From the NCBI GenBank assembly GCA_027624075.1, contig JAQBUH010000007.1, positions 1 through 64,000 of the forward strand: a stretch of 64,000 bases of DNA, in the 5' to 3' direction. The stretch comes from Chloroflexota bacterium. GTDB lineage: Bacteria; Chloroflexota; Dehalococcoidia; Lucifugimonadales; Lucifugimonadaceae. The notes beneath the pieces are model-generated. The model was not told where the DNA came from. It was given only the letters and a program-made list of their open reading frames with translations, and ran no database searches. This document shows positions 54,227-57,471 of the stretch, in pieces; position 1 is the first letter of the stretch; each line of letters opens with the position of its first letter. Made by a program: the position numbers and the translations under genes.

Positions 54227-55682
54227 CTAACCCAGCTTGCGGATGAGCTGGACGTACTGCAGCAGGTGACGGTCGCCAAGGAACTTTTCGATCACACGCG
54301 ATCTGGCGTTTTGGCCGAGCCGTGCCGCCAGTTGGCCGTCATCAAGGACCGACTGCACGGCGGTGGCGAACTCTTCGGGGTCCCGCGGGTCCTGTAAGAG
54401 GAGACCCGACTCGCCGTGAACGATCTGGTTTTGAATGCCGCCGACGGCAGAGGCGACCACCGGCTTGCCTTTCCACATAGCCTCCGTCACGGTCAACCCG
54501 AACCCTTCCTCAAGGCTCTTCTGGATCACGAGCGTTGCGTTCGCCTGCAACGCGTTAATTATCGCCGCGTTCTCGTCGATGTCCGTCATGGGGATGCAGA
54601 TGAGTTGGACCCGGCTCCGCTCGAAGTGCGGGAGTTCGCGCCACGCCTCGGTGCACTCTGTCAGGACCTCTCCGCCTTCGGGGTCGTCTGCAACACCGGT
54701 CACGACCGGGCCTGCTAGCACAAGGTGCGAGTCTCTATCGCCGTCTACGTGGACGGCGAAGGCCTCCATGACACCCTGCATGTCCTTAAGCCGGTCCCAG
54801 CGAGAGGACCTGTACGGCAAGCCTGCTGTCCGGGCCGGGAGCGGGCCCGGTGCGCACGATGTCAGCCATCCGGTTTACTCGCCCTGTAGAGCCGTCTGCC
54901 AGGGTGAACTCAGGTGGAACGTCGGTTGAGTCGTAGTGGATGACTCCGGTGTGGGCCAGGATGGCGAGCGCCGCATCGCGTGACATGGGGCGGTTCTTGG
55001 TAGAAAACGGGTCGACGGACGGCGGAATGATGAACAGACGGTTCTCGTCCACCCACTCCGGCGCAAGCTCACTGCGGGAAAATACGAGCGCGTCGACATC
55101 TTCCAGATACGGACGCAGGAACTCCCAGGCTGCGGTGTTGAGGTCGCTCTTCCGGTCTGTGCCGACGTGACAGCGCCAGATCACCGTCGCTCCGGCATTC
55201 TTCATCTCGGCCGCCAGTCCCGCTGTCTGCGGGTCGTGCAGCATGACGATGTCGCCCGGCGAGACCACGGCGCGAAGCTCCCCTGCGTTCGCAAGTGTGA
55301 CCTCGCGATATACGTTCCTGTCGTGTGAGTTCATGGGTAACCCGTCGCCTTCATGGCCGTGCAGCATGTTGTGGAGCCGCTTGGTGATCTTGAAGAACTC
55401 GGGCGTTCCATCGATGACGTACCAGCTCACATCGACGCCTGCTCCCCTGACGTAGGAGAGCATCCAGTGGAGCATCTCCGCAACACCGCCGCCTTTAGCT
55501 GTCGAGTTGACGCTGATGAGTGCCCGCCCGGACAGAGCGGTAGATATCTCATCTGCTGTATCCAGCACCAGGCGTGTTCGCTCAGAGCCGATGACGGGCT
55601 CAAGCCGGGCAAGATCAGCAGACTGCAGTGGAACTGAGTTGAGTGGCATTTCGTTGTTCCGCAGAGTGAGGTTGCGACGCAT
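54227..55682 (-). pseudogene. treT: trehalose synthase, TreT-type GT4 glycosyltransferase, frameshifted
   Basis: TreT joins a nucleotide-sugar glucose to glucose, giving trehalose. The N-part (55682 to about 54810) has GRALISVNSTAKGGGVAEML, MLHDPQTAGL and WRCHVGTDRKS. The reading frame breaks just after RLAVQV. The C-part resumes at SRWDRLKDMQGVMEAF and has KSLEEGFGLTVTEAMWKGKPVVAS, the classical GT4 donor-site region. A one-base insertion in the CC run at about 54806-54810 explains the change; removing one C restores VQVSRWDRLKD. Everything else is intact, so a recent mutation or a sequencing error is likely. Orientation is leftward, alone. Confidence 0.88.
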
Positions 55683-56002
55683 TCCGCATTAGCTGGCCCG
55701 CTACGGACACAGGCGCGGCGATACACCCCACTCTACAAACCGCCTCTGGGTAGGGAGGAGTCGAGTCGTGCGAATTGCGTGAAGATAACCGCATGGGGCG
55801 GTTTCGAGCCTGCGAGCCAGATGTGGAGTGAGCGCTGTCCCGGCACTGGTCTACGTACTTTTCGGCATCCGGATGAGGGAACGCGCACAGCCCTGTATTG
55901 CCGGCCTGCTGGACGTAAATGGCATAATGTTGGATGCCGGTGAGCGATGCTTACGCGAACCGGCCGGTTGTGGGCAGTGGCCCAGGCTGCAAACGATAAT
56001 GA

Positions 56003-56150
56003 AAGGAGGTGTTTGCTAAGCATGAATAGTAGTACCGGAGGTGTCCGGCTTTAGCATGGGCGCCCAGTCTTAGCAGGGCACCTCAACGAGAGGGGTCACC
56101 CGGTTAGCGGCCAATTGGCTGTTGACCCGGTGGCCCCTCTTGCTTTCTGC
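56003..56150 (+). ncRNA. candidate structured RNA with alternative SD/anti-SD pairing
   Basis: Two Shine-Dalgarno sequences are present, AAGGAGGTG at 56003-56011 and GGAGGTG at 56037-56043. Each is followed by ATG (56022 and 56056) within similar CTAAGCATG and TTTAGCATG contexts. A 9-bp stem pairs GAGGTGTCC (56038-56046) with GGGCACCTC (56076-56084), hiding the second SD. The same CACCTC can pair with the first SD. A large hairpin and T-rich run follow. No target gene lies downstream in this orientation, so it would be a free-standing RNA. I know no family that it matches. Confidence 0.45.
56022..56054 (+). CDS. possible 10-residue leader peptide
   Basis: The open frame encodes MNSSTGGVRL followed by TAG. 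It has an excellent SD 12 bases upstream. A second minimal frame, MGAQS, begins at ATG 56056 behind its own SD. These are too short to judge by codon use. They may be translated leader peptides that govern folding of the downstream hairpins, or chance ATGs within an RNA that binds ribosomes. Confidence 0.3.
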   Translation: MNSSTGGVRL

Positions 56151-56326: not shown

Positions 56327-56704
56327 TCAGACGGCGAATTCGAAGAGACGCGCGTACTGCTGGGGCAGCGCCGCACGCAGCGCGTTGAACTCATCCAGTG
56401 AGAGTTGCTGCTCAACCACCGATAGCACTGCCCACGCACGTTGGATCGCGACCGGCTTGTCCACGTGGGAGCGTTCGCTGATCCGCTCGAAGAACTCGTG
56501 GACCGAGAACTGCTCTGGCTTTAACGGCCGCTTGAGGTACATGGCGGCCTCGCGAGGCAATTTGCCGGCAAGCTGAGTCAGCTGGGGGCCGGGAAGGCAC
56601 TCTGCCAGCGTTTCAAGAGTAGCCTGAATCGCCCTGGATATGTCATCAGCCTTCTCGATGCGGCCACGCCGTCCGATCAGCTTTGTGAATTCGAGGTAGT
56701 TCAT
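56327..56704 (-). CDS. DUF2267 family protein
   Basis: A 125-residue protein matching DUF2267: MNYLEFTKLIGRRGRIEKADDISRAIQATLETLAECLPGPQLTQLAGKLPREAAMYL shows the pattern of YxEFxxxV, AxxAxxAVLxTLAxRL and LAxxLP that defines the family. Function is unknown. ATG 56704 is chosen because the domain begins there; the longer open frame adds 64 unconserved residues. Transcription is leftward into the orphan RNA region. Confidence 0.82.
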   Translation of the reverse strand: MNYLEFTKLIGRRGRIEKADDISRAIQATLETLAECLPGPQLTQLAGKLPREAAMYLKRPLKPEQFSVHEFFERISERSHVDKPVAIQRAWAVLSVVEQQLSLDEFNALRAALPQQYARLFEFAV

Positions 56705-56961
56705 TCTCTCAGGCGCGTTTTCCAGCTGGGTGACTGCGGTTTTGATAGAGACCCAACCCAGCATCGTCCTGGCCCGGCTAACCAGTGTAGGCTTTTTTAC
56801 CCACATTGCACCGTATGGTGGCTCATGTGTGGCGATAGCTCGTCTCACATAACCTCGCCCACGGTGTGATTCAGGTTTGACGCTTTGGGCTCTCAACTGG
56901 ATGGGCAGACAGCGGCGCTCAGTTCCGCAGGTTCCCCTAGGTTCCCAGAATCAGGAGACAG

Positions 56962-57471
56962 ATGATCCGGCACTTCACATCTACGGGGATAGTGGCAATA
57001 GACGGCGCTGCCCTGGTGCACTGGCACGCCAGAGTGCAGGCGTGGCTGGCTCCGGGAGGTCACATCGAGCCCAATGAGGACCCTGTACAGGCGACGATTC
57101 GCGAGGTGAAAGAGGAGACAGGGCTGGATGTCCGTATCCTCCCGACCTCTTCACCACCGGAAATTTCCAACCTTGCGCAGATCATCACGCCGTTCACTGT
57201 GATGGTGGAGGACGTGACTGACGAGAAACACGGACCGCACCAGCACATCGACTTCATCTACTTCACGACCCCTGTTGGCGAGGCAGGGAAATCCGGCGGT
57301 GGCGGCCGCCCGGCGGTGCCGGATGGCTGGCACTGGGTTACTCGTGATGCGCTGGTGAGCGGCAGCCCGCTTATGGCTCCAGACGGGCAGATGGTTGCGC
57401 CGCCTGAGGACGTGTTGAAGCTGAGCATCTCGGCGCTTGACCTGCTGGAGAAAGACAGGGCGAGCGGTTAA
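56962..57471 (+). CDS. Nudix hydrolase
   Basis: A 169-residue enzyme that hydrolyses nucleoside diphosphates linked to X. The Nudix box is GGHIEPNEDPVQATIREVKEETG at 33-55 (pattern GX5EX7REUXEEXGU, all acidic residues present). VHWHARVQAWLAPGGH just before it places it near the ADP-ribose or MutT-like group. Start ATG 56962 has AGGAGAC upstream. It converges with the small membrane protein gene with no gap. Confidence 0.9.
   Translation: MIRHFTSTGIVAIDGAALVHWHARVQAWLAPGGHIEPNEDPVQATIREVKEETGLDVRILPTSSPPEISNLAQIITPFTVMVEDVTDEKHGPHQHIDFIYFTTPVGEAGKSGGGGRPAVPDGWHWVTRDALVSGSPLMAPDGQMVAPPEDVLKLSISALDLLEKDRASG

Follow-up and report, generated by a model that had tools for sequence, protein, structure and literature searches.

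A conserved structured RNA of Chloroflexota with a mini-ORF that runs into a hairpin-hidden Shine-Dalgarno sequence

A short locus in a Chloroflexota genome carries two Shine-Dalgarno sequences (SD1 and SD2), a single CACCTC motif (anti-SD) able to pair with either of them, and a terminator-like hairpin. Is this arrangement a peculiarity of one genome, or does it mark an RNA with a function of its own? The locus lies in a stretch of 64,000 nucleotides, which we call the window. A previous reading of the letters alone (the sequence-only reading) had described it as an orphan RNA matching no known family, either a ribosome-gated switch or a trans-acting small RNA. All the elements named in that reading were found where it had placed them (Table 1), including the 9-bp stem over SD2 and the repeats CTAAGCATG (56016-56024) and TTTAGCATG (56050-56058). 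CACCTC can indeed pair with either SD, and the two forms are nearly isoenergetic in the window (-31.3 kcal/mol for the SD2 form and -33.6 kcal/mol for the SD1 form); in the six genomes of the window's genus for which it was computed, the difference was about 0.5-3 kcal/mol. The window has a single match to the pattern SD1-gap-SD2-gap-CACCTC, and none of 100 shuffles has one; the 246-nt region folds with a z score of -5.2, beating all 200 dinucleotide-preserving shuffles. The loop of the first hairpin (H1) contains the stop codon of a mini-ORF and GGGCGCCC. The second hairpin (H2) is paired at 25 of 26 positions, with one C/C mismatch (56101/56128). The T-rich run described after H2 is weak in the window itself and strong in relatives, the U-tract being clear in genus g11 and in many relatives from other families of the order.

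Table 1. Positions in the window of the RNA elements and of the genes 3' of them
Feature	Positions	Strand	Remarks
Candidate -10 box CATAAT	55923..55928	+	Most homologues have TATAAT here
5' domain, preceding SD1	55935..56001	+	Conserved within the window's genus
SD1 AAAGGAGGTG	56002..56011	+	Complementary to the 16S 3' tail GGATCACCTCCTTT found in relatives
Alternative pairing, SD1-TTTGCTAAG with CTTAGCAGGGCACCT	56007..56083	+	Mutually exclusive with H1; extended in the window's genus only
Mini-ORF MNSSTGGVRL*, 10 codons	56022..56054	+	ATG at 56022; kept as an ORF in all homologues
SD2 GGAGGTG	56037..56043	+	Within the mini-ORF, 7 nt before the last sense codon
Hairpin H1	56038..56084	+	Covariation; SD2 arm GAGGTGTCC 56038-56046, anti-SD arm GGGCACCTC 56076-56084
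Second ATG frame MGAQS*	56056..56073	+	Frame of the sequence-only reading; not conserved
Hairpin H2, terminator-like	56087..56142	+	Covariation; U-tailed terminator in relatives
DUF2267 protein gene	56327..56896	-	Inserted between RNA and NUDIX gene in the window's genus
NUDIX hydrolase gene	56962..57471	+	Follows the RNA directly in most of the family's other genera

By DNA search, the six remaining genomes of the window's genus contain the element with 84-86% identity; the matches mostly span window positions 55920-56150, and the intergenic flanks are without a match. A covariance model built from eight sequences (R1) located the RNA in 45 of the 76 genomes of the window's family (f1), with one true copy in each, the extra matches being the antisense of the H2 palindrome. 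A wider model built from f1 alone (R2) recovered the AT-rich genus g7, which brought the f1 total to 53 genomes, and it matched other families of the order with E values down to 2e-9. Conversely, a model built without f1, from other families of the order only (R3), gave matches in 61 of 250 genomes of the order, six of these in f1, and its sole match in the window's own genome fell at window 55997-56144 (E = 7.8e-4). Together, R2 and R3 place the RNA, as a single copy each, in 53 f1 genomes and 55 genomes of other families. One match (L140 in G213, E = 0.009) was judged by eye to be due to chance and left out. Viral contigs gave no hit. The f1 genera g5, g6 and g9 have small genomes that keep the NUDIX gene and in which a copy of the RNA was not detected.

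Another order of the class has a related RNA with the same plan and a longer ORF, carried by 36 of 38 genomes there (22 of the 22 good ones). This second-order RNA (L148, L149, L205-L229) is near-universal and standalone, with an ORF of 17-20 codons ending in EVTSS and the palindrome GGAGGTGACCTCC; in most cases, a TTGAC promoter lies immediately upstream. The shared plan consists of a promoter, SD1, a mini-ORF of about 10 codons, H1 hiding SD2, and H2, in most relatives clearly an intrinsic terminator. The window locus is real, and as a structured RNA it is conserved well beyond a single genome. Homologues with conserved pairing exist, and the check that could have refuted the sequence-only reading did not do so.

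The covariation was measured over H1 and H2 in 34 family sequences, using a model-fitted alignment that favours the structure somewhat; the effect is nevertheless large, with 95.0% of cells paired, compared with 80.0 ± 0.6% in shuffles and at most 47.5% with slid partners. Double changes were seen at 32 of the 39 pairs, and the covariation score was 0.505, versus 0.240 ± 0.010 in shuffles and at most 0.125 after sliding. An independent count on 29 sequences also gave strong covariation in both hairpins, and RNAalifold returned H1 and the terminator hairpin from a plain MAFFT alignment of the other families. The C/C mismatch of H2 is kept even in the AT-rich genus. In the other families of the order only, a further covarying stem (P0) ends just before SD1, for example AGAGAC/GTCTCT, AGGGAC/GTCCCT and GAAGAC/GTCTTC, among others, with a mean length of 7.5 bp versus 5.7 ± 0.2 bp in shuffled sequence. 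We identified no covarying antiterminator by eye; a pairing of the 5' arms of H1 and H2 was plausible as an antiterminator in some genera, and inspection revealed no covariation of it with H1. In the g11 loci (L096 (G034), L098, L099 and others) the H1 loop is enlarged by an insertion of some 60 nt or more. The loop reads TAG[GA]TGTTC in all 52 order-level loci collected (L121-L196), the loop having been part of their selection, and AGTAGTA recurs between the start codon and SD2 in these loci.

The sequence-only reading had proposed two SD-ATG modules, each with its own minimal frame. Only the first mini-ORF is conserved. No other genome of the window's genus has the ATG at 56056; this second ATG is private to the window, and we therefore dropped the two-module model. 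SD2 is instead part of the end of the first mini-ORF. The first mini-ORF keeps its start and stop in 52 of 52 distinct loci outside f1, with a TTG start and 9-12 codons, and length changes inside it are always multiples of three; it is clearly under selection. In the same 52 loci the TAG stop falls at the first base of the H1 loop, and the distance from SD1 to the start is free (2 to 11 nt, 6-9 in most). All 34 f1 loci likewise keep an ORF of 10-12 codons, starting with ATG, GTG or TTG and stopping with TAG, TAA or TGA. From these sequence patterns we strongly infer that the mini-ORF is translated. Its peptide recurrently starts with M-D-S-S (MDSSSRRCSG-like), serine being encoded almost only by AGT or AGC, and in the second order the peptide MDxHSRSY..LALEVTSS is conserved. 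Reinitiation at a GTG after the stop, within the invariant loop TAGGTGTTC, was considered and rejected on inspection, no conserved second ORF being found.

We found that the position of SD2 relative to the end of this ORF is nearly fixed. SD2 precedes the last sense codon by 6 nt in 52 of 52 order loci outside f1, by 7 nt in 32 of 34 f1 loci, including the window, and by 8 nt in the second order; at this spacing (6 nt, or 7 in f1) a ribosome standing at the stop codon is in register with SD2. A start codon belonging to SD2 itself is not conserved. Read in the frame of the mini-ORF, SD2 encodes Gly-Gly in f1 and Arg-Arg elsewhere; therefore, what is kept is the nucleotides and their distance to the stop, not the peptide. 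This bears on the idea that the RNA is a mini-mRNA and acts through its peptide product, about 10 residues long. The strict retention of the ORF, the recurrent M-D-S-S start and the conserved second-order peptide would fit such a role, but the C-terminal half switches frame between families (GG versus RR) while the SD2 nucleotides stay, the restriction of serine codons to AGT and AGC points to conservation at the nucleotide level, and several codons within H1 vary with the stem. We consider a functional peptide quite improbable.

The two arms of H1 are conserved to different degrees. Three positions of the SD2 arm are G in 52 of 52 loci, whereas their partners have changed from C to U in 12, 3 and 8 of the 52; the anti-SD arm, which occurs as CACCTC, CATCTTC, CCTTC or CACTTCC, drifts to G-U pairs while SD2 is nearly invariant. 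The anti-SD arm is mainly a cover for SD2, and because three G residues are invariant opposite a drifting partner, SD2 is probably read by something besides its partner arm, the 16S tail being the obvious reader. The assembly of the window genome is without a 16S gene, and the tail was therefore checked in relatives, 9 of the 10 tested having the standard GGATCACCTCCTTT. The same asymmetry weighs on a second explanation, a translation-gated antisense small RNA in which a ribosome opening H1 would expose the CACCUC arm to block the SDs of target mRNAs. This arm could base-pair with SDs and becomes accessible only through translation of the mini-ORF, and the RNA is autonomous (see below), all of which would suit an antisense role. 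A trans-acting seed should, however, be the conserved side, and here the anti-SD is the less conserved arm and SD2 the nearly invariant one; the arm is also paired and variable, unlike the invariant and unpaired anti-SD-like motif of the Yfr1 type. We regard antisense action as unlikely, though less so than a functional peptide.

Could the arrangement be due to chance, or be an ordinary intrinsic terminator with a fortuitous SD? Strings of this kind do arise by chance, since a looser version of the pattern gave 8 real and 7 reversed-control matches in 400 Chloroflexota genomes. The covariation, the single copy per genome in over 100 genomes and the invariant register contradict this explanation, to which we give next to no weight.

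We then asked whether the RNA belongs to a neighbouring gene. The sequence-only reading had stated that no gene follows in the same direction; there is one, the NUDIX hydrolase gene, which lies past the opposite-strand DUF2267 gene. In f1, a same-strand NUDIX gene follows the RNA in 20 of the 22 loci examined, the contigs of the other two ending too soon. NUDIX genes directly 3' of the RNA (f1 loci L042-L065) are mostly without an SD and come after a C/T-rich spacer; the NUDIX gene of the window, which is separated from the RNA, has an SD-like AGGAG. On this neighbourhood we at first favoured a cis-acting leader or attenuator of the NUDIX gene, with H2 as a regulated terminator, a model to which the many NUDIX genes lacking an obvious SD would also lend themselves. 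It was demoted after the g11 and order-level loci. The constant co-directional downstream gene is a feature of most of f1 only and fails in g11 and at the order level: in a single-contig g11 genome, about 1.4 Mb separate the RNA from the NUDIX gene, and the RNA lies instead upstream of an MNT-like nucleotidyltransferase/HEPN gene pair (named by eye), and outside f1 the neighbours vary, with many downstream genes convergent, such as cinA or a phosphotriesterase-like gene. In addition, the opposite-strand DUF2267 gene intervenes in the window's own genus, and the NUDIX gene occurs without the RNA in g5, g6 and g9. We therefore give the leader model only a slim chance; because most neighbours differ or converge, the RNA is best regarded as autonomous rather than a leader.

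The signals at its ends are those of a transcription unit in many relatives. Genus g11 has a perfect TTGACA-16-TATAAT promoter and a CCTCTTTTTTG tail after H2; copies from the order's other families are preceded by a TATAAT box, and a U-tailed terminator closes most of them. The -35 sequence of the window (TTGCCG) is weak, with a 19-nt spacer to the -10 box. Elsewhere near the locus, a trehalose-synthase-like glycosyltransferase gene (54227-55682, minus strand) is split into two overlapping frames near 54800, a frameshift that is either real or from the assembly; the same gene is one continuous frame in related genomes.

We compared the RNA with known families. Rfam 15 contains no family that reached its gathering threshold for the RNA in the window, for 15 pattern loci or for 17 further loci, and the best sub-threshold matches were at chance level, far below the cut-off; the locus contains no tRNA. 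The only Rfam match in the window is a TPP riboswitch aptamer (RF00059, 36555-36666, plus strand, 65.6 bits). No description was found in the main text of openly accessible papers. The view of the locus as an orphan RNA working as a ribosome-gated switch or in trans holds up well: the RNA is conserved, covarying and autonomous, it carries a mini-ORF across H1, and it has no Rfam match.

Several described systems share parts of this anatomy. In leader-peptide attenuators of the trp, tna and erm types, translation of a mini-ORF opens a hairpin and a terminator-like hairpin follows; the present RNA differs in having no constant downstream gene and no conserved arrest peptide and in standing alone in most families. 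At the prfB (RF2) frameshift site an SD inside the ORF likewise acts on a ribosome at a stop codon, but with a shorter spacing and to shift the frame into a long ORF, whereas the spacing here is 6-8 nt and no conserved continuation ORF exists. The bar minigenes of phage lambda have ORFs far shorter than about 10 codons and act by peptidyl-tRNA drop-off, unlike an RNA with its stop in a hairpin and an SD in register with that stop. The Downstream-peptide motif is a glutamine-responsive element. Like our RNA, this motif (also yfr6) is a conserved RNA with a short ORF and in-frame indels, but it lies in the 5' UTR of cyanobacterial ORFs of 17-100 codons (PMC2864571) and has no SD/anti-SD hairpin in the ORF. 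The lambda bar minigenes and the inhibition of translation by minigenes are cited in PMC8012679; what they share with our RNA is a mini-ORF that binds ribosomes and, when translated, can occupy the translation machinery. Yfr1 of cyanobacteria is likewise small, standalone and near-universal within one bacterial group, and it too has a 3' terminator hairpin and a C-rich anti-SD-like motif; this motif, ACUCCUCACAC, is perfectly conserved and unpaired (PMC2190773). Blocking of the SDs of target mRNAs has been proposed for C-rich small RNAs such as Yfr1. Yfr1 is 54-69 nt long, with its motif unpaired and invariant and no ORF belonging to it (PMC2190773), whereas in our RNA the SD2 side is the conserved one, the anti-SD is paired and an apparently translated mini-ORF is present.

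Our leading reading, to which we give slightly less than an even chance, is that the locus belongs to a so far undescribed family of small autonomous RNAs, roughly 150-210 nt long, which would work through the ribosome, capturing or sensing it. The sequences support the first steps, in which the RNA would form its own transcription unit with a promoter and a terminator hairpin, SD1 would recruit ribosomes to the mini-ORF of about 10 codons, and the ribosome would have to open H1 to finish it. The stop codon lies atop H1, and SD2 precedes the last sense codon by 6-8 nt, the spacing of an SD paired with the 16S tail. The later steps are those that we infer, namely the capture itself and the target of the RNA: the terminating ribosome might be gripped by SD2 and held, as 70S or 30S, keeping H1 open; on its departure H1 would close and hide SD2 again, and in the window's genus the released anti-SD could also close SD1. 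The RNA might thus catch ribosomes, or report their availability or recycling, with an effect expected in trans, on translation capacity.

Some observations count against capture. In f1 the RNA usually sits beside the same NUDIX gene, where a local role is possible, and some genera of f1 lack the RNA. H1 could simply protect the RNA, and SD2 could persist for the hairpin stability that a GGAGG arm confers, though the unequal conservation of the two arms argues against the latter. The predicted accessibility of SD1 is only moderate (mean unpaired probability 0.39), and the distance of 12 nt from SD1 to the start is long in the window.

We also looked beyond the class. The strict pattern AAAGGAGGTG-N20-32-GGAGGTG-N22-52-CACCTC, run over about 85,000 species genomes without a reversed control, gave 25 loci. 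Those outside the family include loci of Armatimonadota/Hebobacteria and one Bacillota-labelled contig (MLHRPGGGVS* and MLHRPGGGAS*), a second Armatimonadota locus (MHSKPRWLRR*), loci of Latescibacterota (MIATTRRWVV*) and Gemmatimonadota (MGSMNCLAEVASP*), and a Thermoleophilia locus with MSDHSGGGSS*, which requires an AUU start. SD2 lies 6-9 nt before the last codon in all these named loci, compared with 1-4% of shuffles per locus tested; three other loci (L013, L018 and L034) failed this register test and were taken as chance. Because the looser pattern is uninformative, the cross-phylum reading rests on the strict pattern and the ORF-register test, and we treat the possible spread of the RNA across phyla as a lead, not a result. 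In Armatimonadota/Hebobacteria (L016, L023, L025, L026, L030, L033) the matching RNA is standalone, in several cases downstream of gyrA and an archease-like gene, with multiple SD and anti-SD copies, a strong terminator and the mini-ORF MLHRPGGGVS* or similar. The Thermoleophilia/actinobacterial RNA (L015, L028, L029) has AAAGGAGGTGGTCC...GGAGGTGGCAGTAG and an apparent 10-codon ORF with an AUU start, near a tRNA gene. That all these loci belong to one unrecognised, widespread class of bacterial RNA, capturing or counting ribosomes by means of SD1, a mini-ORF of about ten codons and a hairpin-hidden SD2 in stop register, is doubtful at present, though it has a better chance than the antisense explanation.

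Together these results make the finding stronger than the sequence-only reading could know, even though its second SD-ATG module is wrong. Our verdict is that this is a real, new and conserved RNA family with an unusual, ribosome-centred anatomy. A structured RNA kept as a single copy across many families of one order, with a related RNA nearly universal in a second, probably plays an important part in the cell, and the ribosome is its only evident partner. If SD2 does hold terminating ribosomes, the RNA would be a regulator of translation capacity or ribosome recycling without a match among the described kinds; even if this mechanism is wrong, it provides a well-supported new RNA family for the annotation of Chloroflexota genomes.
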